Assembly (NCBI RefSeq): GCF_028737205.1
Contig: NZ_JAQZAL010000018.1
Location: forward strand, 62,001-126,000
Source of the DNA: Actinomycetospora lutea
Lineage (GTDB): Bacteria > Actinomycetota > Actinomycetes > Mycobacteriales > Pseudonocardiaceae
Direction: 5' to 3'
DNA length: 64,000 bases
The translations under genes and the position numbers were made by a program. Positions 12,877 to 28,193 of the stretch are shown in pieces. Positions within the stretch are counted from its first letter, which is position 1. Every line of letters starts with the position of its first letter. Under the pieces are notes generated by a model. It was not told where the DNA came from. It made no database searches and was given only the letters and a program-made list of their open reading frames with translations.

Positions 12877-14472
12877 TCATCCGCGCCCCGTCGCCGTCCG
12901 CGACGCCAGGGCCCGCAGGACCGCGCGCGGCACGACCCGCGTGACGCCGACGATCGCCTTGTACACCGCTCCCGGCACGGACACCGCCTTTCCCGCCTCG
13001 AGGTCGTCCAGGCCCTCGGTGACCACCGTGCCCGCGTCCAGCCACAGCCAGTCGGGGCCCGGGCGGTCCTGCCCGAGACGCGCGTGAAACTCGGTGCGCG
13101 TGAACCCGGGGCAGAGTGCCATGACCCGCACGCCCGTGCCGCCCAGGGACAGGGCGAGGTTCTGCGAGAGCGCCGTGACGTAGGTCTTGCCCGCGCTGTA
13201 GACCGAGCCGCGACCGGGCAGGAAGCCGGCCACGCTCGACACGTTGATCACGTCGCCGCGCCCGCGCGCCACCATGACGGGCAGGACGGCCGCGGTCAGC
13301 TCGAGCACCGCGGCCATGTTGACCTCGTAGTTCGCGCGCAGGGCGCCGGGGTCGGTGTCGACGAACTCGCCGGCGGTCGCGTAGCCCGCGTTGTTGACCA
13401 GGAGCGCCACCGGGGTCTCGCCGAGGGTCAGGCGCTCGACCACCCGGCGGCGCCCGGACGCGGCGGCGAGGTCGGCCACCAGCACCTCGACGCCGACGCC
13501 GTGGCGGGCCCGCAGGCGCTCGGCGAGGCTCTCGAGACGCGCGGCGTCGCGGGCGACGAGGACGAGGTCGTGCCCGGCGACGGCGAGGTGCTCGGCGAAC
13601 GCGGCCCCGATCCCGGAGCTGGCGCCGGTGACGAGCGCGGTGCCCTCCCGGGCGCCGCGGGGTCCGCGCCGGGCCGCGAGCGCGCCGGCGAACGTCGTGC
13701 GGCGCATCCCGGACGACACGCGCAGCGCCGCGAACGGGACGAGCCGCGAGGTCCCGACCAGCGCCTTCATCCCCACGCCGGGCGTCGAGACGGCGCGTCC
13801 GGCGGCGTGGTCGGCGAGGGCGGCGCCCGCGACGGTGTCCACGTCGGGCGGGGCGACGCGCAGGGGGACGGCCTGCTTCGTCCGCGGGCCCCCGCCGACG
13901 CCGGGCGGGGTCGGGCAGACGACGGTGAGCGTGAGCCCGTCGGCGTGGTGCCGCTGCGCCAGCGACTCGGTCAGCATCGCGACGTAGGCCTGCGCGGCGC
14001 CGTCGAGCCCGGCCGCGCCGGGCAGCGGCAGGTAGGCGCCGGGGCCGGCGGTCGTGATGACCCCGCCCGGGCCGGGGTGCCGGCGCGCGATCATCCCGGG
14101 CAGCGCGGCCCGGACGAGGACCAGCGCGGCGGCAGCGGTGCGGTCGAGCGCGGCGCGCACCCGCGCCGGGTCGGCCTCGGGCAGGCCCTCGGTGCTCGGG
14201 GGCGTCGGCCCGACGACGAGCAGGTCGATGGGGCGGGTCGAGGTCTCGAGACGGCGGGCGACGAGGTCGACGTCGTCGGCGTCCGCGAGGTCCCCGGGCA
14301 GGATCTCCGGCCGGGTGCCGCCGAGCTCGTCGGCGAGCGCCTCGAGGGCGCCGCGCTCCCCACCGGCGAGGACGAGCTCGTCGCCCGCCGCGTGCAGGCG
14401 CCGGACGAACGCGCGGCCGAGGTCGGTGTCGGCCGACGTGACCAGGGTCCGGCGCGGTACGGGCCCGCTCAC
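12877..14472 (-). CDS. Two-domain short-chain dehydrogenase/reductase fusion
   Basis: The product is 531 aa with two tandem SDR folds. The C-terminal domain (about 275-531) is a complete classical [21 protein letters not shown] cofactor loop, [14 protein letters not shown] with the catalytic Ser, and YSAGKTYV with the Tyr/Lys pair. The N-terminal domain (1-270) keeps the fold but has lost the glycine loop ([12 protein letters not shown]) and the YxxxK pair (YVAML), so it is predicted inactive. Both halves end in a similar hydrophobic [15 protein letters not shown] / [15 protein letters not shown] motif, pointing to an internal duplication. The start GTG at 14472 overlaps the stop of the upstream gene (GTGA). 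The substrate is unknown. Confidence 0.85.
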
Positions 14473-15284
14473 CGCCCCGAGGACGAACTGCTGCGGGCGC
14501 CCGGCCCGAACTCGTCGTCCTCGACGTCGTAGGGGATGTCGGCGGGGCGGTCGCGGTGGGTCGGGCGGGGCTCGTCGGCGGGCACGTCGGCCTCCGCGTC
14601 GTGGTCGGCAGCGGCCGGGGTGGGCTCGGGGCCGTCGCCGTCGCCGTCGCCCCCGCCCGCGGCGTCCTCGAGCGCGACCGACAGCTCCACGAGCGCCTGC
14701 AGGAGACCCTGGACGCGGTCGGGGTCGGCGCCCGGGTCGGTGGTGGCGAGCACCCAGGTGTCCTCGGCCCAGACCAGCGGCACGTCGTCGCCGACCAGGT
14801 CGGCGGCGCGCGCGACGTCGCCGGTGATCAGCGGGCGGGCCTGGGCCACCGAGGTGACGAAGGCGTAGCGCTCGCCGACCTGGCCGAGCGAGTCGAGGCC
14901 CGCGTCGTCGGGCAGCGGGGCCGAGGGCAGGCGCAGCTCGATGGCCACCGGCAGCGTCGCGACGCCGCGCACGGCGGCGACGATGCCCGTGATCTGGCCG
15001 GCCTGCTCGTGGTCGAAGACGTGGGCGAGCCGACGGCCGCCCGGGCCCGGGACCGCGCCGGTGGCGAGGTCGAGCGCGCGGCCGTGGCCACCCTGGTGCA
15101 CGGCGCCGTAGCGCCAGCGGCTCGGCAGGACGGGATCGACGTCGACGAACTCCCAGCTCTTCTGCTCGGCCCACTTGCGCCGGTCGCGACGGTGCCCGCC
15201 GGTGCGGGCGCGGTCGGAGAGCAGCAGCAGCGCCCCGCCGCCCGCGGCGAGCGCCGCGATGACGAACCAGACCCAGGCAGGCAC
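14469..15284 (-). CDS. Membrane-anchored hypothetical protein
   Basis: The product is 271 aa. One N-terminal membrane helix ([18 protein letters not shown]) is followed by a basic stretch and a globular domain of about 180 residues ([23 protein letters not shown] onward). The C-terminal 60 residues are Asp/Gly/Pro-rich and disordered, ending in a Ser run. No known domain is recognised. The GTG at 15284 is preferred because it gives the helix at the N-terminus and lies 6 nt after a TACCCT -10 motif. It is translationally coupled to the double-SDR gene. Confidence 0.65.
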
Positions 15285-15290
15285 GCACGC

Positions 15291-15296
15291 AGGGTA
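15291..15296 (-). promoter_or_regulatory. -10 element (TACCCT) of the membrane-anchored protein gene
   Basis: TACCCT on the minus strand lies 6 nt upstream of the GTG at 15284; leaderless-type spacing. Confidence 0.35.
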
Positions 15297-15347
15297 CGAC
15301 GCCCGCGTCCCCCCATCGTGCAGGGCGCCCTCGGCGCGCCGGACCAC

Positions 15348-15387
15348 GTGAGCGAAATTCGGGGCTATCGCACCGAACTCCGCTCAC
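15348..15387. repeat. 40-bp imperfect inverted repeat (GTGAGCG...CGCTCAC)
   Basis: The arms GTGAGCGaaaTTCG and CGAActcCGCTCAC face each other around a GC-rich centre, in the divergent gap between the membrane-anchored protein and the ABC-F gene. Because both neighbours point away, it is not a terminator. It is either an operator shared by the two promoters or an intergenic palindromic repeat. Confidence 0.55.
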
Positions 15388-15420
15388 ATGGGACGTCCGA
15401 AACGGGTGGTGCGGCGCGGT

Positions 15421-15426
15421 TAGGCT
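15421..15426 (+). promoter_or_regulatory. -10 element (TAGGCT) of the ABC-F gene
   Basis: TAGGCT lies 8 nt before the GTG at 15435. This favours 15435 over the in-frame GTG at 15429, which would lie only 2 nt from the motif. Confidence 0.4.
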
Positions 15427-15434
15427 CGGTGATC

Positions 15435-17084
15435 GTGAGCGCCACGCTGGTCGCGCGGGACCTCGCCGCCGCGCACGGCGCCCGGGTGCTGTTCTCCGGA
15501 CTCGACCTCGTCGTCGCCCCCGGCGACGTCATCGGGCTGGTCGGGGTGAACGGCGCCGGGAAGTCGACCCTGTTGCGGCTGCTCGCCGGCCTCGCCGCGC
15601 CCGACCAGGGCTCGGTCGCGCTCTCGCCCGCGTCGGCGACCGTCGGGCACCTGCCCCAGGAGACCGCGCGGGTGCCGGGCGAGACCGTCCGCGGCTTCGT
15701 GGGCCGGCGCACCGGCGTCACCGCGGCCGCCGCCACCCTCGACACGGCGACCACCGCGCTGTCGCAGGGCGCCCCCGGCGGCGACGAGGCCTACGCCGCG
15801 GCCCTGGAGCGCTGGCTCGACCTCGGCGGCGCCGACCTCGAGGAGCGCACCGCCGAGGTCGCCGACGACCTGGGCCTCGACGCCGCCCTGCTCGACGCCC
15901 CCGTGACCGCGCTCTCCGGCGGCCAGGCCGCCCGCGCCAACCTCGCCTCGCTGCTGCTGGCCCGCTTCGACGTCTTCCTGCTCGACGAGCCCACCAACGA
16001 CCTCGACCTCGCCGGCCTGGAGCGCCTCGAGCGCTGGGTGCGCGACCTACGGGCCGGCACGGTGCTCGTCAGCCACGACCGCGAGTTCCTGGCCCGCACG
16101 GTGACCTCGGTGCTCGAGCTCGACCTCGCCCAGCAGCAGGTCACCCAGTACGGCGGCGGCTACGAGGCCTACCTCGCCGAGCGCGCGACGGCCCGCCGGC
16201 ACGCCCGCGAGGCCTACGAGGAGTACGCCGAGAAACGCTCCGAGCTCACCGCGCGGATGCAGACACAGAAGCAGTGGGTGGACAAGGGCGTGCGCAACGC
16301 CCGCAAGAAGGCCACCGACAAGGACAAGTTCATCAAGCACCACAACGCGCAGACCTCCGAGAAGCAGGCCTCGAAGATCGCGCAGACCGAGCGCCGGCTC
16401 GAGCGCATGGAGGTCGTCGAGGAGCCGCGCAAGGAGTGGGATCTGCGGATGACGATCGCCGCGGCGCCGCGCTCGGGCACGGTCGTCGCGACGCTGGACG
16501 GGGCCGTCGTCCGCCGGGGCGCCTTCACCCTCGGCCCCGTCACCCTCCAGCTCGACCGGTCCGACCGGGTCGCGATCACCGGGGCCAACGGCGCCGGCAA
16601 GTCGACGCTGCTCGCGCTGCTGCTCGGGCGCCTCGCGCCCGACGAGGGGCGCGCCGCGCTGGGGTCGGGCGTCGTCGTCGGGGAGGTCGACCAGGCCCGT
16701 GGCCTGCTGACCGGGTCGACGGCCCTGCTCGACGTCTTCTCGCGCGAGCCCGAGCTCGACCGCTGGCCCACGGCCGAGGTCCGCACGCTGCTCGCGAAGT
16801 TCGGGCTCGGCGCCGAGCACGTGCACCGCGGCGCCGACACCCTCTCGCCCGGCGAGCGCACCCGCGCCGCGCTGGCCCTGCTGCAGGCGCGCGGGGTGAA
16901 CCTGCTCGTGCTCGACGAGCCCACCAACCACCTCGACCTCGCCGCCATCGAGCAGCTCGAGTCCGCGCTCGCCTCGTTCGGGGGCACCCTGCTGCTCGTC
17001 TCGCACGACCGGCGCCTGCTCGCGGGCGTGGCGACCACCCGGCACTGGCACGTCGACGCGGGACGGGTCACCGAGATCGACTAG
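15435..17084 (+). CDS. ABC-F family ATPase
   Basis: The product is 549 aa with two ATP-binding cassettes and no membrane domain, the ABC-F plan. These soluble ATPases act on the ribosome, in translation control or antibiotic protection. Cassette 1 has Walker [10 protein letters not shown], signature [19 protein letters not shown] and Walker [13 protein letters not shown]. Cassette 2 has [23 protein letters not shown] and [12 protein letters not shown]. The linker (about residues 240-330) is strongly charged and coiled-coil-like ([23 protein letters not shown]), as in the P-site tRNA interaction motif. Whether it confers resistance cannot be decided from sequence. Confidence 0.93.
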
Positions 17085-17136
17085 CCGGGTCACGGGTCGA
17101 GCTCCGCTTCGCTCCGTCTCCGGGAACCGGACGAAC

Positions 17137-17154
17137 GATGAGAACGTTCTCATC
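17137..17154. promoter_or_regulatory. Perfect 18-bp palindrome upstream of the lipoprotein/two-component operon
   Basis: GATGAGAACGTTCTCATC is a perfect palindrome centred 53 bp before the lipoprotein start at 17198. It is a good candidate operator for this operon. A half-site, TTCTCAT, occurs at 25318-25324 upstream of the second acidic lipoprotein gene. Confidence 0.5.
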
Positions 17155-17197
17155 CCGGCGTCACCGGCGGCTCACCCGCGACGACGAGGGTGGCCGC

Positions 17198-17440
17198 ATG
17201 ACTCGTTCGACCATCGCTGCCGCGCTCGTGCTCGCCGGGCTCGCGGTCGGCGCGACCGCGTGCGACACGTCCACCGAGTCGCCGCTGCCGGCGCCGGTGT
17301 CGGTGCCGTCGGTGCCGGGCGGGGCGCCCGCCCCGGCCCCGGAGCAGGACGACGACGGGACCGTGGCGCCGCCGCCGGCCGGGCAGGAGGACGGGGATGA
17401 CGGCGGGGACGCCGGCGACGACGACGGTGGCGACGGCTGA
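17198..17440 (+). CDS. Small acidic lipoprotein
   Basis: The product is 80 aa. The signal peptide MTRSTIAAALVLAGLAVGATAC ends in a lipobox Cys, followed by a Pro/Val-rich linker and a C-terminal Asp/Gly-rich tail (GDDGGDAGDDDGGDG). The mature part has no fold signature; the acidic tail could bind divalent cations. It overlaps the start of the histidine kinase gene by 44 bp. A paralogue-like acidic lipoprotein lies beyond the response regulator (24918-25226), so the pair flank the two-component genes. Confidence 0.75.
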   Translation: MTRSTIAAALVLAGLAVGATACDTSTESPLPAPVSVPSVPGGAPAPAPEQDDDGTVAPPPAGQEDGDDGGDAGDDDGGDG

Positions 17441-18385
17441 TCACCCCGTCGCCCACCCCGTCGGCTACCTGCGCGCCCGCGGCGCCCGTGTCCGGATCGT
17501 CGCCTGGGTGCTGCTGCTCGTGCTCGGGAGCATGGCCGTCGTCACCGTCGTCACCTGGCAGCTCCTGATCCGCGCCACCGACGCCCGCATGGACACCGCG
17601 CTGCGCACCGAGATCGAGGAGTTCACGGCGCTCACCGCATCGGGCCGCAGCCCCACCGACGGCGCGCCGTTCGCGTCGGTCGACCAGGTGCCCCAGACCG
17701 CGATCACCGACAACCTCGCGCGTCCCAACGAGAAGTTCCTCGGCTACCTCGACGGGGTCTTCCGCTACCAGAGCCGCCAGCAGAGCCCCGTGCTGCTCGC
17801 CGGCGACCCGGGGTTCGCCCGCCTCGCCGGGTCGGTGCCGGCGCCGGTGGAGGCCCGCTACGAGAGCGCGGCGGGCGAGGTCCGCTACATCGCCGTGCCC
17901 GTCACGCTGGCCGGCGACCCGGCGCGCGGTGTCATCGTCGTCGCCTACTTCGCCGACCAGGAGCGCTCGGCCGCCGACGACGCCGCCCTGCTCATGGTCG
18001 CCGCCGGCGCCGTCACCGCGGTGCTCGCCGCCGTCGCCGCCTGGCTGGTCGCGGGCCGCATCCTGCGCCCGGTGCGCGACGTCGCCGACACGGCGCGCGC
18101 GATCACCGAGACCGACCTGTCCGCGCGCATCACCGCCCGCGCCGACACCCGCGACGAGCTCGGCGCCCTGGTCCGGGCGGTCAACGCGATGCTCGACCGC
18201 GTCGAGGACGGCGCGCGGGCCCAGCGCCGCTTCGTCGACGACGCCGGCCACGAGCTGCGGACCCCGATCACGATCGTGCGCGGCCACCTCGAGGTGGTCG
18301 ACGTCGACGACCCCGCCGACGTGCGCGCCACCGTGGGGCTGGTCGACGACGAGCTCGAGCGGATGAACCGCATCGTGTCCGTGCT
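17397..18385 (+). pseudogene. Sensor histidine kinase, 5' part (interrupted by the island)
   Basis: The AGGAGG site and ATG at 17397 start a normal OmpR-partner kinase. It has a membrane helix (IVAWVLLLVLGSMAVVTVVTW), an extracytoplasmic sensor of about 140 aa, a second helix (LLMVAAGAVTAVLAAVAAWLVAG), HAMP (ILRPVRDVADTARAIT) and the H-box (RFVDDAGHELRTPITIVRGHLE, phospho-His about residue 285). Shortly after the second dimerisation helix (ELERMNRIVS) the similarity ends, near 18380-18390. The frame continues by chance for about 190 codons into foreign DNA. The missing ATPase domain is found 5.3 kb downstream at 23719-24234. Any product here would lack catalytic ATP binding. Confidence 0.9.
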
Positions 18386-18475
18386 CTTGCACCAGGACCG
18401 TCCGCACGGCGCAGGACACCTCTACAGACGTGGGCTTACGGCCCGCTGGGACGCCGTGTACGAGGCGGTCCGCTA

Positions 18476-18679
18476 CTACCCAGTCCAACCACCCCGGATC
18501 GGGGGCGGCTCACCGCACGGGCAAATCAGCCCCGGCACAGGTTCCGGGTGCTCGCCGGTCCAACACAACGGCTTTCCGCGCTTGGCTGCGCGCCTCCGCT
18601 TGACCAGCAAAGAATTGCAGGGCTGGCACTTGCCAGCCGTTTCCGGCCGCTCATGTAGACCTTTCTCGCACAGCGCCAT
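18476..18679 (-). CDS. Small cysteine-rich (zinc-ribbon-like) protein
   Basis: The product is 67 aa, MALCEKGLHERPETAGKCQPC at the start. Cysteines at 4, 18, 21 and 39 and a late CPC pair, with nearby His residues, suggest a zinc ribbon. It is basic in the middle (KRRRAAKRGK). The shape is typical of small actinophage or integrative-element proteins. Function unknown. Confidence 0.45.
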   Translation of the reverse strand: MALCEKGLHERPETAGKCQPCNSLLVKRRRAAKRGKPLCWTGEHPEPVPGLICPCGEPPPIRGGWTG

Positions 18680-18817
18680 GGATGATGGCTTCCGTTCTCG
18701 TGAATTGGGTAGGCGGTATCGCCCCGGTCTCCCTCCGGGCCGATCCCCTCTCCGTTCTCAAGGCATAAAGATGGCCCGGCAGGAATTCCCACCGGGCCGC
18801 GTGCTGATAACGGCCCG

Positions 18818-19015
18818 CTACTTGCGGGGATCAAACTCCACACGGCATCCAGGTTCGGTGCACCGGAAGAACGCGCGTCGCTGCCCGGTGCTCTTGTCCG
18901 TCGCCGTGACTATGCTGGGCGGCGAATCCACGTGCTCGCACCCGGCCGCGCGCCGTACTTGATCCACGCGGGTACGGTTCCCGCCGTCTCCCCCGTGCAT
19001 CGTGCTCGCGATCAT
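18818..19015 (-). CDS. Small zinc-ribbon-like protein
   Basis: The product is 65 aa, or 60 if it starts at the ATG at 19000. The C-terminal half has a candidate zinc site: CEHVD and then FRCTEPGCRVEF. It ends in a basic tail. It lies 139 bp upstream of the other small cysteine-rich gene on the same strand. No family is recognised. Confidence 0.4.
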   Translation of the reverse strand: MIASTMHGGDGGNRTRVDQVRRAAGCEHVDSPPSIVTATDKSTGQRRAFFRCTEPGCRVEFDPRK

Positions 19016-19326
19016 TCTCTGAACCTTCGTCTTAATCGATCACTTGCGGCTGACGGCGCAGACGCTACGTGACACTTAACAGTCAAGGCAAGCCGAGCCC
19101 CCGACCGGCTACGTCACAGATCCAATCAAGCCCTAGACCAGCCAATACGGCGACGCACCTATACGCGTTGGACCCATTATGTGCGCCATTAGTAGGTGCG
19201 TGACAGCGAAGCCGGACGGGTAGATAGCATAATGGTTGGTACACGTCCCAACTGACCGCAGAGAGTGACGTCTCGAGCTGCGGAGAGTGAGAGGCCCGCG
19301 GGGACGGCCAGGCGGATAATGGGGGC
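19016..19326. other. 311-bp gap inside the island, no gene seen
   Basis: This AT-richer intergenic stretch separates the minus-strand gene starting at 19015 from the plus-strand gene at 19327, so it must carry two divergent promoters. No coding frame with a ribosome site was found. Short overlapping frames here have no recognisable product. Confidence 0.4.
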
Positions 19327-19578
19327 ATGAGTGGCGCCCCGGAGCTAATCGAGACTCCCCCGGAATCGTGCTCGCGCGGGCACGCGCTAGGGCCGGGGAG
19401 AATGCTTGTCGGGTGGTCGCACTGCGAGTGCTCCGGGACGAGGATGGGACAGCGCGGGCGCAGGACGTGGCGGTCCCGGGAGTGCTCTGAGCTGATCTAC
19501 CGGGGGCACCACGTGCCACGGCCGTCTGAGCGGCTGCTCGTCGAGGCGTACGGGCGGACCCACGTCCGGGACACGTAG
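19327..19578 (+). CDS. Cysteine/histidine-rich small protein, copy A
   Basis: The product is 83 aa. It contains CSRGHALGPGRMLVGWSHCEC, then a TWRSREC element and a conserved-looking tail (LIYRGHHVPRPSERLLVEAYGR). I recall an actinobacterial pattern of GHxLGPGR-VGW-CxC-TWxC-PPH zinc-ribbon proteins, of unknown function, which this resembles. The tail has a second, diverged copy at about 19985-20071, showing that it is a real coding sequence. Confidence 0.55.
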   Translation: MSGAPELIETPPESCSRGHALGPGRMLVGWSHCECSGTRMGQRGRRTWRSRECSELIYRGHHVPRPSERLLVEAYGRTHVRDT

Positions 19579-19640
19579 CGCCGGACCGTGGCGAACGACA
19601 CAACCGCGCGCACGCGACCTGCTCACGTATCCCTAACACT

Positions 19641-19662
19641 GTTCATGCTCTACAGCATGAAC
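19641..19662. promoter_or_regulatory. Perfect inverted repeat, candidate operator
   Basis: GTTCATGCT and AGCATGAAC face each other across CTAC. The 11-mer ATGCTCTACAG inside it recurs at 19693-19703, 48 bp on. Paired sites of this kind are typical of a phage- or plasmid-type repressor operator. A TTGACA at 19743-19748 could be the controlled -35. Confidence 0.45.
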
Positions 19663-19984
19663 GCGTTTAGATGCCGCGCCCGCACTCTCGCTATGCTCTA
19701 CAGTTTCGCTTTTCGCGGGCGAACCGAGTAGGACTTGAATCGTTGACAGCAACGAGAGTCCCCGGAGGTCCGCGTGATCCAGAACCTTGCTCATTCCCAC
19801 GATGCGCTTGTGGTCCTGTTGTACGGTTCCGTGTGTTCTGGCCTGTGGGCCACGATGGACGGACTCACCATGCTTGCGTGGGGAGGGACGCTCGTCGATG
19901 CGCGAGCGGCCGTCCGGCATCGGCTCTACGGGAACCAAGAGCCGCGAGAACCATTCTCCGGGCATAGGTCGCGTCTGGGACGAG

Positions 19985-20071
19985 GTTCTCTTTAGAGGGC
20001 GCCATGACCCCCGCCCTAATGAGGTGGTTGTGGTGGAGCGCTACGGACGGACGTACGTTCAAGAGTGTTGA
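19985..20071 (+). pseudogene. Diverged second copy (C-terminal part) of the 19327 gene
   Basis: The frame ending at 20071 reads VLFRGRHDPRPNEVVVVER, YGRTYVQEC. Aligned with the 83-aa protein tail it is identical at about 14 of 28 positions. The upstream part of this frame (from about 19787) does not resemble copy A's zinc-binding half, and no single frame in the region does, so the copy looks truncated or frameshifted. The whole interval 19579-20151 contains no other convincing gene. Confidence 0.45.
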
Positions 20072-20151
20072 ACGCGCGTCAGCGCTACTTGACTTATCGG
20101 TAGTGGCTGTCCGGCTAAGGTCATCAGCACGAGCACGTTCAGGAGGGCTTC

Positions 20152-21155
20152 ATGGTCGCGAGGCGCACACGCAAGTGGCCTCATCCGAGCCAGGCATGGA
20201 CGTTCGGAGCGGCGCTCTGGTTCCTGTTTGTGCCCGGCGCGATAATAGGTCAAATGGCCTGTATCTCGACCTAGAGGATAATTGGGGCTCGCTGAGCTTG
20301 CTGACGAACATGCTGGCCGGAGTTGCCTCCGCTTGCTTTGGCGTCCCTATCGCCTACAACCTGCTGCAAGCACTTTTCCGCCGACAGGAGGCAGGCCGGG
20401 AGAGGCAGATACTTCTAGCGGATGTGCTGGCGCACGTGGCGGAGATGCGCATAATGAGCGACTTGATCCTTGACAACGAGACGTGCGTCGACCTCACGTT
20501 GAGCTGTTTCCATTCACAGGCGCTGTTAGAGCGTATCGCAAATGAGGTCAGAGAGCTTTCGGCGGGTGAGTACCTTGCGCAGGAGGTTATAGTTGAGGTC
20601 TCTGAAACTCTTGCGGCTAATGACGCTCTGGCGATGGCGCTCTGGGACCGTTTTCGAGTACGGCGAATGTGGTACGTGTGCCAGGCAAGGTGGCGGAGGC
20701 TGTCCGAGGAGCTGCTACCTCGCGCGCGGACCGAGGGGCTTGGTCTCGACTACCTCGCGGAAGCAAGCCTTGCGGAGTTTTTCATGCAAGATCACCCGCT
20801 GGAACAATTTGGGAAGATGGTCGACGAGCATCAATTCCGCTTTGTAAGCTTCCGCAAGTTCTTGAGGACCCCGTCGATCGGTCTTGGAGCAGACGGAGAG
20901 GTCCATGATCCCCGGCAGGCGAGTGAGGAGTTGCTAAAACTCGCCCAGAATCATCTAAAGATGATGGATTGGGTTGCTGCTGCCGGGGCTGCTCTCGCCT
21001 CGCTTGGGCTTCTCGCTGAGAACGCCTTGAAACTTGCGCCATCGCACTCGCCACTACGCGCAACAGTGGAAGTCGAGCCGAGTTCGGGGCAGGAACTGAG
21101 AGAAGGCGACTGGCGCGAGAGGCTTCTCCGTGGAGAGCAACTAGCTACTGGGTGA
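20152..21155 (+). pseudogene. Two-helix membrane protein gene with apparent frameshift
   Basis: An ideal AGGAGG (20141-20146), 5 nt before the ATG, starts MVARRTRKWPHPS and a membrane helix (WTFGAALWFLFVPGAIIGQ). That frame hits TAG at 20272-20274 after 40 codons. The adjacent frame, open across this point, supplies YLDLEDNWGS, a second helix (LLTNMLAGVASACFGVPIAY) and a long cytosolic helical domain of about 280 residues to 21155. One missing base near 20255-20265 would join them into a protein of about 335 aa. The gene may be broken, may use frameshifting, or the base may be a sequencing error. The downstream frame has no equally good start of its own. Function unknown. Confidence 0.6.
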
Positions 21156-21390
21156 TCGGATGGAAGCGGTAGTTCACGCTGTCGCCGGGCACGGTGGAGT
21201 TGTTCCGGTGCCGCATGCGGTCGTACTCCTCCATGCTGTGCTCTGGACGGAACAGCCGAACGTCGCCGTCGTCATAGAACGTGACACGGGTGCCGTTGGG
21301 ATGGGTCACCACGTAGCCGCCACGGTTGCGCCCGTTCCGGGACGGCGCAAAGGCGCGGACCGTGAATCCCTCCGGAGTACTGTGCGTCAT
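21145..21390 (-). CDS. Hypothetical small protein of the island
   Basis: The product is 81 aa, soluble and Asn/Arg-rich with beta-type segments (GGYVVTHPNGTRVTFYDDGDVRLF). Its ATG at 21390 overlaps the stop of the DUF4190 gene (ATGA), so translation is coupled. Its 3' end overlaps the convergent membrane gene by 11 bp. No family is recognised. Confidence 0.5.
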   Translation of the reverse strand: MTHSTPEGFTVRAFAPSRNGRNRGGYVVTHPNGTRVTFYDDGDVRLFRPEHSMEEYDRMRHRNNSTVPGDSVNYRFHPITQ

Positions 21391-21731
21391 TGTGTCGCGC
21401 CGTTGAATACGGCCACGATTAACAGCACCGCGACAGCTATCTGCAAATACCCGAAGATTAGACCAGTGAGGGCGAGACCATTGCCGCGCGCGGTCCTTAG
21501 ATCTCTTGTCGCGTTATACGCGATGTGCCCGCAGACAATTGCTACTAGCGACCCGATCCAGAAGAACCAACACAGTGCCGCGATGAACGACACGATAGCG
21601 AGGCCGTTCCACGGGGCATAGTTCTGGGCGTACACATAGTGCCGCTGCGGCGGATAATTCGGCGGAGGCGAGTACTTGGGCGGTGGCTGCTGCGGTCGTG
21701 ATTGCCAACCACCGTCAAATCTCCGGTCCAC
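21387..21731 (-). CDS. DUF4190-type membrane protein
   Basis: The product is 114 aa. After a Pro/Tyr/Gln-rich N-terminus (PPPKYSPPPNYPPQRHY) come two membrane helices flanking the DUF4190 pattern: NGLAIVSFIAALCWFFWIGSL, HIAYNATRDLRTARGNGLALTGLIFGYLQIAVAVLLIVAVF. The family is common in actinobacteria and of unknown role. GTG 21731 is chosen because a GGAGAGG site precedes it by 8 nt; an in-frame TTG at 21737 lies too close to that site. It is coupled to the 81-aa gene. Confidence 0.7.
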   Translation of the reverse strand: MDRRFDGGWQSRPQQPPPKYSPPPNYPPQRHYVYAQNYAPWNGLAIVSFIAALCWFFWIGSLVAIVCGHIAYNATRDLRTARGNGLALTGLIFGYLQIAVAVLLIVAVFNGATQ

Positions 21732-21818
21732 CGGCAAGCCCTCTCCACTTGGATTGCAGCGCTATCTGCTCCCAGTCGTGATCGCTCCGAAGGGCCGGTT
21801 CGTTACGGCGGGCACTCC

Positions 21819-22886
21819 CTACAGGTAGCCCGTGGAGGGTGGCTGTTCAGCCTTCTCAGCAGGCTGAGGTGACGGCGGCTGCGGAGGCTCACTGTCCGCC
21901 TGCTTCTTTCTTCTCCGTCGCAGGAAAGCCCACACGCCGCCGATGCCCCCCAAGATCACGGGCACGCTGAGACCCGTCGCCGTCCAGGCCGGTGAGCCGA
22001 GAAGATTGGTGAGGGTGTAGCCCCAATCCCGATCCACTTGGATCGACTGATTGATATACCGCACGGCTACAGCTTCATTACTTCCGTAATAGGATCTCAC
22101 AGTGAGCGTTAACACTTTAAAGCCGGGCTTGGTGGCTTTCACGTCCCACTGCCATTCCGCAACATCGCCCGGAGCAGTCGGGCGGTCGGCGGTCCCTCCA
22201 ATTGCAACTGGCTCGAATCCGTCGCCGCCGAGTTCGGCGGTCAGGCTCAGGCCCACAGGTATGGGCTCCTCGTATGGAGCTGGCCGGTCATTCGGGAATT
22301 GGCCGAGTGCCACGCTCCGTTCTGCAATGTCAGACGCCCTCACAATAATCCGCTGCGTCTGCCCTTGTAGCATTGGATTTGCCACCCCGAAGAAGATCGT
22401 GCCATTGCGTAAAGCAGCTCGCCTCTGCTCTGCTAGTTGACGAGCGCGGGCGACCTCAGGGTTTTCCGTCGGCGGAGCCGCTTGGGGCTCGTTTAGGAGT
22501 TCGTCGTCGGTGGGCTCGTCCGGAGGCTCTTGGGTAGTAGGTCTGGCGGGAAGGGTGCGTGAGCTGCGGGACCCGCCACCGCCGCTACCGCCGCTACCGC
22601 CGCCACCGGCGCTGTCCGGCGCAGCACGGTTGGGCGGACGCGTGAACTCGAAAGAAGCTGTCGACGGAGTGGGGGCGTAAGTGGAGTAAGGGGTGTAAGT
22701 GGGGGTGTACTGGCGGGTATTAGGGGGGATGTTTGTGGAGGCTGTGCCCGTGGTAGGAGGACGTCGACCCTCTGCGGTGACGAGGGCACCCAGAACCAGG
22801 ACAGCGATGACAGAGATCAACGCCGCCGCAAGCGCGAAGAACCGCTTCCGCTCAGGTTTCGCTCGTGATCCCTGGCCCTCCCCCAT
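21819..22886 (-). CDS. Membrane protein with extracellular Ser/Pro stalk and beta domain
   Basis: The product is 355 aa. An N-terminal helix (FFALAAALISVIAVLVLGALV) leads to a Thr/Pro/Tyr-rich and Gly/Ser-rich extracellular stalk (about 40-150). A beta-rich domain of about 130 residues follows (FFGVANPMLQGQTQRIIVRAS ... GFKVLTLTVRSYYG), which looks Ig-like. A C-terminal helix (GLSVPVILGGIGGVWAFL) and an RRRRKK stop-transfer end it. Both termini are cytosolic. Position in the island suggests an accessory surface or defence role, but nothing identifies it. Confidence 0.6.
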   Translation of the reverse strand: MGEGQGSRAKPERKRFFALAAALISVIAVLVLGALVTAEGRRPPTTGTASTNIPPNTRQYTPTYTPYSTYAPTPSTASFEFTRPPNRAAPDSAGGGGSGGSGGGGSRSSRTLPARPTTQEPPDEPTDDELLNEPQAAPPTENPEVARARQLAEQRRAALRNGTIFFGVANPMLQGQTQRIIVRASDIAERSVALGQFPNDRPAPYEEPIPVGLSLTAELGGDGFEPVAIGGTADRPTAPGDVAEWQWDVKATKPGFKVLTLTVRSYYGSNEAVAVRYINQSIQVDRDWGYTLTNLLGSPAWTATGLSVPVILGGIGGVWAFLRRRRKKQADSEPPQPPSPQPAEKAEQPPSTGYL

Positions 22887-23012
22887 AGTGTCAGTGTCGC
22901 GCGGCCGATAACGATCAAATAGGACCAGCCGGGTTAACTCATCGGAGTCCCTCAGTCCGCGCCTTCGCGATCATGCAACACGGATGAATCTAACGGTCGT
23001 ACCGATCGGGCC

Positions 23013-23282
23013 CTACTCAGCAGGCTGCTGGTCTTCTTGGGGCCACGTCGCGTCCGATTCCTGTGGACGCCACGTCTCGATCAGCCGGTACCGCTCGTGC
23101 GGAGGCACGTCATGACCGTGACGGTGGGCGAACAACCAAACCGTGAAGCCACGGGCCGACAGCTCCTCGGCCAGGTGCCTCAGACGGTCCTGAGACTCAC
23201 ACTCGGATGTCTGTAGTTCGTCTCTGTCCGGCTGGGCTAGCGACCCGGTCAGTAGTCGCGCATGAAGGTGATACCGAGCCAT
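23013..23282 (-). CDS. Hypothetical small protein of the island
   Basis: The product is 89 aa, soluble: MARYHLHARLLTGSLAQPDRDEL at the start, then a helix (DRLRHLAEELSARGFTVWLFAH) and a Glu/Gln-rich end. It resembles small uncharacterised proteins seen in actinophage and integrative-element gene sets. No family is recognised. Confidence 0.45.
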   Translation of the reverse strand: MARYHLHARLLTGSLAQPDRDELQTSECESQDRLRHLAEELSARGFTVWLFAHRHGHDVPPHERYRLIETWRPQESDATWPQEDQQPAE

Positions 23283-23337
23283 GGAGAGCAGTGTGCACTA
23301 GCTAGGTGCATATGACTCTTCGAGGTGCCCTTGCCTT

Positions 23338-23628
23338 GTGTCCGTGCAGGTGACCCGGCTACTAGCCCGTGCAAGGGTGCCGGGCGTGGCGAACGCGGAC
23401 CGGAAGGCAGCCGCGCTAGGCCGGGTCGACGTTGCCAAGCGCAAGCGCGACGAGGCGAAGGCGGCCGCCGATAAGGCGGAGTCTGACCTGAGAGCTGCGA
23501 TCTTCGCGGCTGACCGCGCCCGCGTGCCGCACACGGAGATTGCCGATCACGCCGGGATGCACCGGAACACGGTGCGCCGGATCGTTGAGGCAGCGCTTGA
23601 CGAGGAGGACGAGACCAGGCAGGGGTGA
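23338..23628 (+). CDS. Small helix-turn-helix protein
   Basis: The product is 96 aa if the GTG at 23338 is used; GTG codons at 23346 and further in are alternatives. Residues about 25-55 form a highly charged coiled coil (VAKRKRDEAKAAADKAESDLRAAI). Residues 60-85 form a helix-turn-helix (VPHTEIADHAGMHRNTVRRIVEAAL) like those that choose DNA by a sigma-4-type recognition helix. It is probably a DNA-binding protein of the island. It is the last gene before the right junction. Confidence 0.6.
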   Translation: MSVQVTRLLARARVPGVANADRKAAALGRVDVAKRKRDEAKAAADKAESDLRAAIFAADRARVPHTEIADHAGMHRNTVRRIVEAALDEEDETRQG

Positions 23629-23718
23629 TGCCGGCGGGGACAACGCCCGTACGTTTTGATCTTTGCTGGCTGGGTTTACGCAGCTCGGCGGCCCTCTCGA
23701 GCGTCGTGCGTGTAATCC

Positions 23719-24234
23719 ATGTCGGGCCAGCCCGAGTTCGTGCGCCCGGCGCCGACCGACGTGCCCGCGCTGCTCGAGGAGACCCTGAGCAAGGCCTCGG
23801 GGCTCGCCGACCGGAAGTGGGCGCTCGTGGGGACGCCGCAGGCCCTGCTCGCCGACCTCGACGCCCAGCGGGTGACGCAGGCGCTGCTCGTGCTCGCCGA
23901 CAACGCCGCCCACCACACCGCACCGGGCGACCGCATCGTGCTCGGCGCCGGGGCCGACGCGGCCACGCTGCGCCTGCGGGTCGCCGACACCGGGACCGGC
24001 GTCGCCCTGGCCGACCGCGGGCGCATCTTCGCCCGCTTCGCCCGCGGCAACGGGTCCGCGCGGCGCTCCGACGGCGCGGGACTCGGGCTCGCCATCGCGA
24101 GCGCCATCGCCGGCGCGCACGGCGGCCACGTCGAGGTCTCCGACGGCGTCGGCACCGGCCTGCCCGGCCAGAGCGGGCCCGGCGCCACGTTCACCCTGGT
24201 CCTGCCCCTGCGTGCCGAATCGGAGGTGCGGTGA
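23719..24234 (+). pseudogene. Sensor histidine kinase, 3' part (ATPase domain)
   Basis: This fragment of 171 codons is the missing catalytic end of the kinase that begins at 17397. It begins SGQPEFVRPAPTDVPALLEETL, the usual linker after the dimerisation domain. The N-box (LVLADNAAHHT), G1 (VADTGTGVA), F-box (IFARFARG) and G2 (DGAGLGLAIASAIAGAHGG) follow. No ribosome site precedes its first ATG. It ends in a GTGA overlap with the response regulator. Confidence 0.9.
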
Positions 24235-24887
24235 GCAGCATCCTCATCGCCGAGGACGAACCGCGGATCGCCTCGTTCGTGGAGAAGGGCCTGCGCTCGG
24301 CCGGGTTCGCGACGACCGTGGTCGACGACGGCCTCGCCGCCCGCGACCAGGCCCTGGGCGGTCACCACGACCTGCTGGTGCTCGACATCGGGCTGCCCGG
24401 GCTCGACGGCTTCGCGGTGCTGGCCGAGCTGCGCGCGTCGGGCTCGCGGCTGCCGGTCGTCGTGCTGACCGCGCGGGACAGCGTCGCCGACACCGTCGCC
24501 GGGCTCGAGGGCGGCGCCGACGACTACATGGCCAAGCCCTTCCGGTTCGAGGAGCTGCTCGCGCGCGTGCGCCGCCGGCTGGCCGACGCCGGACCGGGCG
24601 AGGTGACCGTGCTGCGCCACGGCACCCTGTCGCTGGACCTGCGGACCCGGCAGGCGACGGTCGACGGCGCGACGGTCGACCTGTCCGCGCGCGAGTTCGT
24701 GCTCGCCGAGACGTTCCTGCGCCACCCCGGCCAGGTCCTCTCGCGCGAGCAGCTGCTCTCCCGCGTCTGGGGCTACGACTTCGACCCCGGCTCCAACGTG
24801 GTCGACGTCTACGTCCGCTACCTGCGCCGCAAGCTCGGCGCCGACCGGATGACGACGGTGCGCGGCATGGGGTACCGGCTGGGCTGA
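24231..24887 (+). CDS. OmpR/PhoB-family response regulator
   Basis: The product is 218 aa. The receiver domain (1-120) has the acidic pocket (AEDEPR), phospho-acceptor Asp52 (LLVLDIGLPGLDG), the T/S (VVLTARD) and Lys (DYMAKPF). A winged-helix DNA-binding domain follows (about 125-218: LDLRTRQATVDG ... VWGYDFDPGSNVVDVYVRYLRRKLG ... VRGMGYRL). It is intact, while its partner kinase is split, so it is now an orphan dependent on cross-talk or on unphosphorylated activity. The GTG start overlaps the kinase stop. Likely targets are the two flanking lipoprotein genes (inference). Confidence 0.95.
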   Translation: MSSILIAEDEPRIASFVEKGLRSAGFATTVVDDGLAARDQALGGHHDLLVLDIGLPGLDGFAVLAELRASGSRLPVVVLTARDSVADTVAGLEGGADDYMAKPFRFEELLARVRRRLADAGPGEVTVLRHGTLSLDLRTRQATVDGATVDLSAREFVLAETFLRHPGQVLSREQLLSRVWGYDFDPGSNVVDVYVRYLRRKLGADRMTTVRGMGYRLG

Positions 24888-24917
24888 GGCGCGGGGGCCG
24901 GTCACCGCGGCGGTTGG

Positions 24918-25226
24918 TCAGTCGTCCCGGTCGTCGTCCCGGTCGTCGTCCCGGTCGTCGTCCCGGTCATCGAGGTCGTCACCGCGGTCATCGGCGCCGT
25001 CGCGGTCGTCGGCGTCGTCGCGGTCGAGGACGCCGTCGTCGTCATCGTCGTCGTCCACGACCCCGGCGGGCGCGCCGGGGATCGGCACGGCGGGCCCGGA
25101 CGGCCCCGTGACGGCGGGCACGGACACGGCGACGGGCATCGGCGCATCGTCGGTGGCGGCGCATCCGGTGAGGGCCAGCGCGCCGCCGAGGGTGGCGAGG
25201 ACGAGCAGGGAGCGAGTGCGGGTCAT
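24918..25226 (-). CDS. Small Asp-rich lipoprotein
   Basis: The product is 102 aa. It has a signal peptide with lipobox (LALTGC, Cys22), a Val/Pro-rich linker (PVAVSVPAVTGPSGPAVPIPG), then an extremely acidic tail of about 45 residues with seven Asp in a row and a repeating DDRD unit at the C-terminus. The linker resembles that of the lipoprotein at 17198 (PAPVSVPSVPGG), so the two are likely paralogues. Metal (Ca/Mg) buffering or sensing at the surface is plausible but unproven. Confidence 0.75.
   Translation of the reverse strand: MTRTRSLLVLATLGGALALTGCAATDDAPMPVAVSVPAVTGPSGPAVPIPGAPAGVVDDDDDDDGVLDRDDADDRDGADDRGDDLDDRDDDRDDDRDDDRDD
24921..24968 (-). repeat. 12-bp tandem repeat in the lipoprotein gene (4 copies)
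   Basis: GTCGTCCCGGTC is repeated four times exactly in plus-strand orientation, coding the C-terminal DDRD units. It is in frame (12 bp), so copy-number change would alter only the acidic tail length. Confidence 0.85.
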
Positions 25227-25319
25227 GACGGCCTCCGGTGTCTCGCGCGGGCCTCGCCCGGCACGGACCAGCGTCGGCGGCGGCCGTGAGGCGCCCGGGA
25301 GACGCTGGTGAGGGCCTTC

Positions 25320-28193
25320 TCATGAATCCCGGAGTGCCTCCCGGGCCAGGTCGACGAGGCCGTCGTCGTCGCGGGCGGCGCCGCGGTGCTCGGCGCGGGC
25401 GAGGGCGTCGGCGCCGAGGCGGGCGGCCAGCGCGTCGCGCAGGACGGCGAGGCGCGCGGCGTCCGCCCCGAACAGCGGCCCGCCCGACCGGCGCGCCACC
25501 AGCCCGCCGAGCAGCTCCGCGGCGACCTCGTCCCGCCCGGCCTGGACCAGCAGCTCGACCACGGCCCGCAGCCCGACCCACTGGTGGGTGCGGTTGCCGG
25601 TGCCGCGCCAGTGCTCCAGCGACTCCGCGGCCGCCCGGGCGGCGGCGGGGACGTCGCCCTGGCGGGCGTGCAGCGAGGTGACGGTCACCAGCGCGACGCC
25701 GAGCACGTACTGCTCGCCCACCGCGCGGGCACGGCGCGCGGCGTCGACGACGAGGTCGAGCGCCGCGGCGGGATCGTGCTCCACGCGCACCTCGCCGCGG
25801 GTGTAGACGCTCCACGGGCGCATCAGGGGATCGCCGCCGTCGCGCACCGCGGCGTCCAGGGCGTCCGCGCCGGCGAGGGCCTCGTCCCGGTCCCCGTCGT
25901 AGGCGACGGCGAGGACGCGGCAGCAGCAGGCGAGGGCCCACACGCGGTGGTCGCCGGCGGCCGCGGCCAGGCGCTCGGCGTCCGCCGCCGCGGACGCCGA
26001 CTCCGCGGACCGCCCGGCGAACCCCGCCACCTCGGAGTGCAGGAAGGCCAGGACGGCGGCGGCCCCGTCGTCCCCGTCGGCGAGGGCCCGCCGCCCCTCG
26101 GCCACGTGCCGCTCGGCGCGGTCGAGGTCGCCGGCGAACCGCGCGCCCTCGGCCGCCACCGCGTGCACCGCCGCCCGCGCGGCACCGAGATCGCCACCGC
26201 CGGCCAGCAGCGCCTCGGCCCACGCGAACAGCTCCGGTGTCATCCGCACCTCGCCGACGTCGACCAGGGCGGCGACGAGATCCGCGGCCAGCGCCGGATC
26301 GTGCGCGGACGCCCAGGCCACCGCGGCCCGCAGCTCGTCCCACTCGGCGAGGACGGCGGCCAGGCGACGGTCGGCGTCCGGCCCCGCGAGGCGCCCGGTG
26401 CGGCGCAGGAACCCGCGCGCCTCCTCGGCGTGACGCCGGTGCAGCGCGGCGGTCTCCCCGGCCTCCTCGAGGCGCTCGCGGGCGTACGCGCGGACCGTCT
26501 CGAGCAGGGCGTAGCGCGAGGGTCCGTGGCGGGCGTGGTCGACCGACGCGGTGACCAGCGACTTGTCCACGAGGTCGGCGAGCACGCCGTCGAGGTCGGG
26601 GTCGTCGGCGACGGCCCGCGCGGCGGCGAGGGTGAAGCTGCCGGCGAACACGCCGAGCCGGGCGAGCACCGTCTGCTCGCGGGGGTCGAGCAGGCGGTAG
26701 GACCAGTCGACGACGGCGTGCAGCGTCCGGTGACGCAGGTCGGCGCCGCGGTGGGGGCTGCGCAGGAAGCGCCGGTGCAGGGGCAGGTCGGCGGCGAGCT
26801 CGGCGGGCGAGAGCACGCGCATCCGGGCGGCGGCCAGCTCGAGGGCCAGCGGGAGCCGGTCGAGGCGCCGGCAGATCTCGGTGACCGCCTCGCGGTTGGC
26901 GTCGGAGAGCGCGAAGGCGGGGTCGGCGGCGGCCGCGCGCTCGGCGAACAGCGCGACCGCGGCGTCCTCGGCGAGCGGCGGGACCGGCCGCACGCGCTCG
27001 CCGGTCACGCCGAGCGGCTCGCGGCTGGTGGCGAGCACGGCGACCGTCGGGCAGGCGGCGGCGAGGCCCGTGACCAGCGCGGCGACGGCGTCGACGACGT
27101 GCTCGGCGTTGTCGAGCACCAGCAGCAGGCGCCGGCCGCGCAGGACGGCGGGGACGCGGTCGCGGGGGTCGGTGCCCGACGCGCCGGGTGCGCCGACCGC
27201 GGCCACGACCGCCGGGGCGACCTCGGCGCCCGTGGCGACGGTGGCGAGCTCGGCGACGACGACCCCGTCCGCGAACGACGCGCCCACCGCCGCGGCGACG
27301 TGCCGGGCGAGCGTCGTCTTCCCGACCCCGCCGGGACCCACCAGGGTCACCGGCCCGTCCCCGATCGCCGCCGCGATCCCCGCGAGCGCGGTGTCGCGCC
27401 CGCGCAGCGCCGGCCCCGGGGGAGCAGCGAACGACGCCCTCGCTGCCTCGGGAGCAGCGGAGGTGACATTCGCTGCCAGCACCTCGGGCGCGGCCGGCGG
27501 CGACCCCGCCAGCACGAGGGCTTCGAGGCGGCGCATCTCCGGGCCCGGGTCGAGGCCCAGCTCGTCGGCGAGCAGGCGGCGGTGGGCCGCGACCGCGGCG
27601 AGCGCGTCACCCGCCCGCCCGGCGCGGTGCAGCGCCTCGACCAGCAGTTCGCGGCGCCGCTCGCGGAACGGGGCCGCGGCCACGAGCTCCTCGAGGCGGG
27701 CGACCGCGTCGGCGGGGCGCCCGAGGTCGAGGTCGGCGCGCGCCCGCGCGTCCTCGAGGTCCGCGCGCAGCTCGCCGAGGCGCGCCGCGACCGGCCGGAA
27801 CGGCTCCTCGTCGGCGAACTCGGCGAACGCCGGGCCGCGCCACAGCGCCAGCGCCTCGTCGAGCAGGTCGGCGGCCCCCGCCCCCGCGCGGGCCCGGTCC
27901 CGCAGGGCGACGACCGCGGTCGCGTCGAGCGCGTCGGTCGGCAGGTCGAGCACGTAGCCGGGCGGTTCGGTGCGCAGCACCCCGTCCCCGAGCACCCGCC
28001 GGGCCCGCGCCACCAGGCTGTGCAGGGCCGCCTCGCCGTGCTCCGGCGGGTCGTCGGGCCACACGTGCGCGACCAGCCGGTCGACGGCCACCACCCGTCC
28101 GGGCTCGAGGGCGAGGACGGCGAGCAGGCGGCGCACGCGCGCCGAGCGGACCGGGGCGTCGTCGACCGCGATCGCTCCCAGGACCCGCACCAT
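25320..28193 (-). CDS. AfsR/SARP-type transcriptional regulator (SARP 1)
   Basis: The product is 957 aa. An N-terminal OmpR-type winged helix (VRSARVRRLLAVLALEPGRVVAVDRLVAHVW, about 10-90) is followed by a bacterial transcriptional activator domain (about 95-240). An NB-ARC/STAND ATPase comes next (Walker A VGPGGVGKTTLARHV near 283; Walker B LLLVLDNAEHV; ATSREPLGV sensor). The C-terminal 450 residues are helical and TPR-like. These proteins activate nearby promoters at direct repeats, often of specialised-metabolism genes. The start ATG 28193 gives the family N-terminus. It is divergent from the MarR gene. No clear 11-bp repeats were seen in its own promoter, unlike SARPs 2 and 3. Confidence 0.9.
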   Translation of the reverse strand: MVRVLGAIAVDDAPVRSARVRRLLAVLALEPGRVVAVDRLVAHVWPDDPPEHGEAALHSLVARARRVLGDGVLRTEPPGYVLDLPTDALDATAVVALRDRARAGAGAADLLDEALALWRGPAFAEFADEEPFRPVAARLGELRADLEDARARADLDLGRPADAVARLEELVAAAPFRERRRELLVEALHRAGRAGDALAAVAAHRRLLADELGLDPGPEMRRLEALVLAGSPPAAPEVLAANVTSAAPEAARASFAAPPGPALRGRDTALAGIAAAIGDGPVTLVGPGGVGKTTLARHVAAAVGASFADGVVVAELATVATGAEVAPAVVAAVGAPGASGTDPRDRVPAVLRGRRLLLVLDNAEHVVDAVAALVTGLAAACPTVAVLATSREPLGVTGERVRPVPPLAEDAAVALFAERAAAADPAFALSDANREAVTEICRRLDRLPLALELAAARMRVLSPAELAADLPLHRRFLRSPHRGADLRHRTLHAVVDWSYRLLDPREQTVLARLGVFAGSFTLAAARAVADDPDLDGVLADLVDKSLVTASVDHARHGPSRYALLETVRAYARERLEEAGETAALHRRHAEEARGFLRRTGRLAGPDADRRLAAVLAEWDELRAAVAWASAHDPALAADLVAALVDVGEVRMTPELFAWAEALLAGGGDLGAARAAVHAVAAEGARFAGDLDRAERHVAEGRRALADGDDGAAAVLAFLHSEVAGFAGRSAESASAAADAERLAAAAGDHRVWALACCCRVLAVAYDGDRDEALAGADALDAAVRDGGDPLMRPWSVYTRGEVRVEHDPAAALDLVVDAARRARAVGEQYVLGVALVTVTSLHARQGDVPAAARAAAESLEHWRGTGNRTHQWVGLRAVVELLVQAGRDEVAAELLGGLVARRSGGPLFGADAARLAVLRDALAARLGADALARAEHRGAARDDDGLVDLAREALRDS

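Follow-up and report, generated by a model that had tools for sequence, protein, structure and literature searches.

The interrupted two-component locus

The stretch of DNA analysed here, referred to below as the window, comprises 64,000 nucleotides from the draft genome of Actinomycetospora lutea (6.53 Mb in 106 contigs; the window is C16:62001-126000) and carries a two-component histidine kinase gene whose halves lie on either side of an island of accessory DNA. Domain profile searches place a HAMP domain (5.7e-13) and a HisKA domain (2.2e-9) within 17397-18385, the HisKA match reaching position 55 of a profile of 66, and a HATPase_c domain (3.4e-20) within 23719-24234. Rather than lying in one chain, HisKA, short of its end, and HATPase_c occupy two reading frames 5.3 kb apart. 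Leaving sequencing reads aside, it appears secure that these frames are parts of one histidine kinase gene (sensor-HAMP-HisKA, then HATPase_c) into which about 5.34 kb of DNA of lower GC has been inserted. A preliminary description of the locus had reported about 5.3 kb of clearly lower-GC DNA between the halves, and the base composition bears this out, with GC of 0.58-0.63 in 1-kb intervals over 19001-23000 and of 0.675-0.826 in intervals entirely outside the island. It had also described the response regulator and both flanking lipoprotein genes as intact, as is the case: the reading frames are whole and the regulator is full length. The two Asp-rich predicted lipoproteins (17198-17440 and 24918-25226) bracket the two-component pair on opposite strands and may be its targets or partners.

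The ends first given for the two halves, 18385 and 23719, needed revision. The reading frame of the N-terminal part passes 18385, enters the island and ends at 18962 (521 residues), and positions 23719-23727 are not clearly host DNA. The first in-frame ATG of the ATPase half, at 23719, directly follows an in-frame stop, and no Shine-Dalgarno sequence was seen before it by eye.

Uninterrupted relatives and insertion edges

Orthologues were sought with the nucleotide sequence spanning the ATPase half and the regulator as query in the A. lutea genome and 17 congeners at a cut-off of E 1e-60. Matches at this level or better were found in 5 of the 18 genomes, namely A. lutea itself and the congeners labelled G016 (91%), G003 (87%), G017 (82%) and G008 (81%). 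At all four orthologous loci the kinase is a single uninterrupted reading frame, with the order sensor-HAMP-HisKA-HATPase, followed by the regulator. The other 13 congeners gave no match at E 1e-60 and are uninformative on the split; the left half was not used as a query there. Two separate genes in the relatives had been named beforehand as the arrangement that would speak against one interrupted gene; it was looked for and was not seen in any of the four. The proposal that the halves are complementary parts of one kinase stands as to their order, their domains and the continuous orthologues, but the two are not perfectly complementary since some host bases are missing.

Alignment with island-free relatives, the check that had been suggested for the edges, places them near 18381-18390 and at 23728. 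G016 and the window are collinear over 10633-34000 with two exceptions, the island and a difference of 0.1 kb near 31300. Strict DNA identity with G016 stops at 18381 and restarts at 23728, while BLAST pushes the left edge to 18390 by way of a gap, so that 26 host bases are missing at the junction on the strict count and 14 on that of BLAST. By comparison with G016, the lost bases encode DLLVLAKAE, the end of the second helix of the dimerization and histidine phosphotransfer (DHp) domain. No target duplication was found at the island edges in this comparison.

The ratios of nonsynonymous to synonymous substitution between the window and G016 are 0.15 for the N-terminal half, 0.24 for the C-terminal half, 0.06 for the regulator and 0.17 for a neighbouring ABC-F gene; the corresponding values for the intact pair G016 and G003 are 0.18, 0.25, 0.08 and 0.18. 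There is no stop codon within either kinase half. For the same four genes in the same order, amino-acid changes polarised by G003 number 5, 7, 3 and 16 on the window branch and 4, 3, 4 and 15 on the G016 branch. Over the codons aligned in all five genomes (297, 161, 215 and 542), the window differs at 4, 2, 1 and 6 positions from a residue common to the four relatives, and changes unique to G016 number 1, 1, 1 and 4. These changes are too few to show decay; either the insertion is recent or constraint persists.

Gene content of the island

The island holds ten open reading frames (Table 1), of which those of 94 and 383 residues overlap, and not all of them need be genes. Searches of these frames against Pfam and PHROGs revealed no recombinase, transposase, replication or transfer gene; NCBIfam and PADLOC were applied to eight of the ten, the 83- and 94-residue frames being excluded. 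The 96-residue helix-turn-helix (HTH) protein has a weak, below-cut-off likeness to many HTH families, including the HTHs of IS21 and IS630 transposases, and no transposase family rises above the cut-off anywhere in the island. No terminal inverted repeat of the island occurs among the 25 longest of the 33 repeats listed. Neither a transposase nor a terminal repeat nor a target duplication thus marks the island as a transposon or insertion sequence. Two candidate features were rejected. A tRNA attachment site, suggested by a tRNA-like phrase in the 65-residue frame, was found neither by ARAGORN in the window nor by Rfam in 14000-28000, and a PADLOC match of the 355-residue protein to PD-T4-6 (1.6e-5, residues 6-145) covers a low-complexity part and was judged to be driven by composition.

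Table 1. Features of the kinase locus and of the island within it, in window coordinates
Feature	Position	Strand	Basis or remark
Asp-rich predicted lipoprotein, left neighbour, intact	17198..17440	+	Open reading frame; start from translation; in block 16845-18390 aligned to G016, 88.5%
Kinase N part: sensor, HAMP, most of HisKA	17397..18381	+	Frame extends into island to 18962
Inserted island, about 5.34 kb, lower GC	18382..23727	.	Left edge uncertain, 18382-18391
67-residue frame	18476..18679	-	Cys pairs by eye; no family
65-residue frame	18818..19015	-	No family
83-residue frame	19327..19578	+	Phage family phrog_12017 of unknown function (4.8e-7); G003 homologue adjoins serine recombinase
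94-residue frame	19787..20071	+	Partial second copy of 83-residue sequence (37% over 19919-20065); overlaps 383-residue frame, may not be a gene
383-residue protein	20004..21155	+	No known family; weak homologues in G003, G009, G218, G005
81-residue frame	21145..21390	-	No family
116-residue DUF4190 protein	21387..21737	-	PF13828, 4.4e-14
355-residue protein	21819..22886	-	Pro-rich linker, two membrane segments by eye; 56% identity in A. cinnamomea
89-residue HLHARL-type protein	23013..23282	-	Matches only within genus among 249 family genomes
96-residue HTH protein	23338..23628	+	Divergent partner of 89-residue gene, pointing to ATPase half and regulator
Kinase C part: HATPase_c	23728..24234	+	In-frame ATG at 23719
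OmpR/PrrA-type response regulator, intact	24231..24887	+	GTG overlaps kinase TGA (GTGA)
Asp-rich predicted lipoprotein, right neighbour, intact	24918..25226	-	Open reading frame

Island DNA is single-copy in the A. lutea genome. At E 1e-5 it has a DNA match in 1 of the 17 congeners (G004), which covers part of the 355-residue gene and 47-48 bases in the 89-residue gene; tblastx matches apart from the regions of these two genes were dismissed as GC-driven noise. At the protein level, a survey of 249 genomes of the family found the 89-residue gene in 15, all of this genus (A. lutea and 14 of the 15 congeners named in the output), the HTH gene in 16, the 83-residue gene in 11, the 383-residue gene in 4 and the core of the 355-residue protein in 12. 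Direct comparison reveals two weak copies of the 383-residue gene in G005 (E 2e-5 and 2e-4, over 44-48 residues). Outside the family, single searches for the 355-residue protein in plasmids, for the HTH protein in phages, and for the HTH and 67-residue proteins in viral contigs were empty, the other island proteins not being searched there.

A scan of genome contigs with the 355-residue alignment returned a single locus, in A. cinnamomea, and the A. cinnamomea contig that shares this gene and a piece of the 89-residue gene has no visible element boundary. The 355-residue family consists of scattered Pro-rich proteins with apparent membrane segments, unrelated neighbours at the loci inspected and no known domain. 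Near the homologue on A. cinnamomea contig 34 (L017 9998-15868) is a frame of 1956 residues that is helicase- and nuclease-like by eye and is possibly a defence gene.

The HTH gene has a match in seven congeners, and in six of them it stands divergently beside a match to the 89-residue gene, with 79-100 bases between the matched edges. In five congeners (G002, G005, G008, G013 and G017) this pair occupies a common locus in high-GC chromosomal DNA; a second copy in G005 and the copy in G006 lie in low-GC DNA. By this distribution the pair is native to the genus, with paralogues in low-GC elements.

Congener elements with a serine recombinase

Three congeners carry such genes in elements that encode a serine recombinase. 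The element of G005 spans about 12.25 kb (C1:3899.92-3912.17 kb; GC of 0.53-0.66 in 1-kb intervals) and has the recombinase at one end (Resolvase 2.7e-27, Recombinase 6.5e-14), an AAA_25 ATPase and two weak 383-type genes, and at the end opposite the recombinase the 89-residue/HTH pair together with a MerR-like HTH gene. It splits eccC, the gene for a type VII secretion ATPase, at the Walker A codons, between GATGSG and KSELLR. Of the two parts of the gene, one matches EccC (4nh0, 7.9e-64) and reaches the edge with GATGSG, and the other (1.2e-257) restarts with GKSELLR. The 10-base sequence TTGCCCGAAC is present at both edges of the element and no eccC codons are lost. One further 10-mer is common to the 401 and 601 bases compared, but TTGCCCGAAC alone occurs at both split points. 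The insertion in eccC is possibly reversible.

The region in G003 (C55, about 153.8-166.4 kb) has a MerR-like HTH gene and the 89-residue gene at one end, a 383-type gene, and the 83-residue gene directly beside the serine recombinase. Just outside this element is a tyrosine integrase whose end is fused to a match for a GntR-type HTH (PF00392), and the two elements may be nested. The element of G006 (C12, about 419.2-428.4 kb, 9 kb) has the 89-residue/HTH pair near one end and the serine recombinase at the other; neither a split gene nor a core is clear (two 9-base matches). Its interior encodes a major head protein (phrog_10, 3.5e-27) and a primase/polymerase-like protein, and the element resembles a reduced prophage or a phage satellite that encodes a capsid.

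Origin of the island

The reading that fits best is that the island is probably an integrase-less relic related to the serine-recombinase elements of its genus. The kinase of a clade-restricted two-component system would have been interrupted by this 5.3-kb accessory island at the end of DHp helix 2, and a deletion at the left end would have carried away the gene for the recombinase, the attachment site on that side and a few codons of the kinase. A single deletion of this kind would account together for the missing recombinase, core and host bases, and the insertion would now be irreversible because both the recombinase and the left attachment site had been taken. The layout of the island is consistent with such a history: the 89-residue/HTH pair occupies the right edge, and the 83-residue gene is near the left edge, where the recombinase would be expected. 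The membership of the 83-residue gene in a phage family and the clean split of another gene by the recombinase-bearing element of G005 also favour a relic. With G003 the island shares the 89-residue, 83-residue and 383-type genes; with G005 the 89-residue/HTH pair and, weakly, the 383-type gene; and with G006 the pair only. Origin as a decayed remnant, one of two suggestions in the preliminary description, gains support from these congener elements, which combine some common genes with a serine recombinase. Because neither a recombinase nor a core was found, and 14-26 host bases are missing, the island is classed as a probable relic and not as a member of the integrative elements themselves.

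Several observations weigh against this assignment. The common genes are distant (24-62% identity, with the HTH and 383-residue matches often extending over 25-55 residues); G006 has only the pair, and G003 lacks its HTH gene. The 83-residue gene is on the other relative strand in G003, beside whose element the tyrosine integrase is found. Five congeners have the 89-residue/HTH pair as an ordinary locus in high-GC chromosomal DNA, so that by itself it is no marker of mobile DNA. The absence of an integrase inside the island, noted from the outset, extends to remnants: none was detected among the frames scanned or by tblastn with three serine recombinases of congeners and one tyrosine recombinase as queries (best E 0.73). 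Finally, no attachment core is visible, the longest match shared by the edges (60 bases each) being 5 bases; when the right edge was shuffled 2000 times, the longest match was at most 5 bases in 799 cases and at least 6 in 1201. According to PMC10654092, the cores of serine-integrase sites are short and difficult to predict, and the missing core is for that reason weak evidence.

The lack of a core and of a target duplication, together with the small host deletion, would also be expected if a double-strand break in the kinase gene had been joined end to end with a foreign fragment, at the cost of 14-26 host bases and with no recombinase ever involved. Such illegitimate capture is possible, though rather unlikely. 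Illegitimate recombination has been proposed in PMC2884548 as the origin of numerous variable segments not attributable to a mobile element, and PMC5124664 hypothesises that end-joining genes affect DNA acquisition in Streptomyces. The A. lutea genome has two Ku genes, but these indicate capacity only, and capture by end joining leaves unexplained the partial likeness in gene content and order to the serine-recombinase elements of congeners. The preliminary description had also envisaged an enzyme encoded elsewhere, that is, a complete integrase-less element inserted in trans. One PF07508 serine-recombinase domain match in the genome (C63:5018-5161, profile positions 4-48 of 102) could be cited in favour, but with no attachment core at the edges and host bases missing this is very unlikely (tyrosine recombinases of the genome were not searched for).

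Consequences for signalling

The H-box is kept along with most of HisKA. Because the helix end is lost and the ATPase domain is separate, autophosphorylation of the split kinase is unlikely, judging from domain anatomy, and the kinase would no longer signal. The regulator is conserved as well as intact. Residues 4-217 of its 218 align to Mycobacterium tuberculosis PrrA (1ys6, 3.7e-49), and its receiver and DNA-binding domains are of full length. The GTG start of the regulator, at 24231, overlaps the kinase stop, and for this reason the insert is probably polar on the regulator. The regulator would now need other phosphodonors and another source of transcription. That source is perhaps the HTH gene of the island, which reads rightward and has its end 90 bases ahead of the ATG at 23719. 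Expression from that gene is possible, but a terminator-like site at 23634-23650, between the HTH gene and the ATPase half, argues against read-through into the regulator. The terminator scan gave 8 sites (3.9 in shuffles, standard deviation 1.8), this one just after the HTH gene, and the promoter scan gave 2 sites (0.7 in shuffles, standard deviation 0.8), neither of them near the regulator.

Separated domains of EnvZ cooperate in trans, and the N- and C-terminal parts of the split kinase might likewise both be made and work together. Both halves are open and carry no excess of replacements over intact relatives, but a recent event accounts equally well for the lack of decay, and the 7 changes of the C-terminal half on the window branch, against 3 on that of G016, lean if anything towards relaxation. 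As DHp helix 2 lacks its end and the ATPase half starts in edge DNA with no visible ribosome site, a working split kinase is very improbable. The assembly is a draft, but an artefact would require two independent misjoins inside one gene, in the interior of a 153-kb contig and around single-copy DNA, and two genes from the start would conflict with one gene at all four orthologous loci, so that either is extremely improbable.

Significance

Interruption of a gene by the relic of a mobile element is a known kind of event. What is new is that some of the island genes recur, at low identity, in congener elements in which a serine recombinase and the 89-residue gene occupy opposite ends. The locus itself was not described among the matches listed in literature searches on disruption of histidine kinases by genomic islands and on serine integrases that target histidine kinases or conserved genes. 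It is a clean natural example of a two-component system deprived of its kinase by an insertion but still in possession of its regulator, and it can be compared with uninterrupted relatives. The lossless split of eccC by the recombinase-bearing element of G005 makes testable both reversible gene switching by such insertions in the genus and the way in which an orphan response regulator arises. A broader and quite speculative idea, for which the odds are poor, is that the genus hosts a family of serine-recombinase elements that insert in conserved catalytic or signalling genes (the Walker A codons of eccC, the DHp end of the kinase) and switch them off, reversibly for as long as they retain the recombinase and perhaps a MerR-like partner. 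The window would then hold a terminal state in which the recombinase is lost, signalling is locked off and the regulator is under the control of the element.

Comparison with known systems

The system resembles those of the PrrA/OmpR type in that its regulator aligns to PrrA and the kinases of its relatives have the same order of domains; the difference is that the kinase is split here. As for the island, remnants of actinomycete integrative and conjugative elements (AICEs) are named in a figure legend of PMC3218068, and the island is like such actinobacterial integrative-element remnants in being an accessory segment with no integration or transfer genes. No AICE replication or transfer gene that would mark descent from an AICE was seen in it. 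Disruption of target genes by serine-recombinase elements underlies a census reported in PMC10083194. The island differs from these elements in having neither a recombinase nor a recognisable core and in the loss of some host bases, and it is like them in being a foreign segment of lower GC within a coding gene; in part of its gene content and order it resembles the congener elements that have the recombinase.

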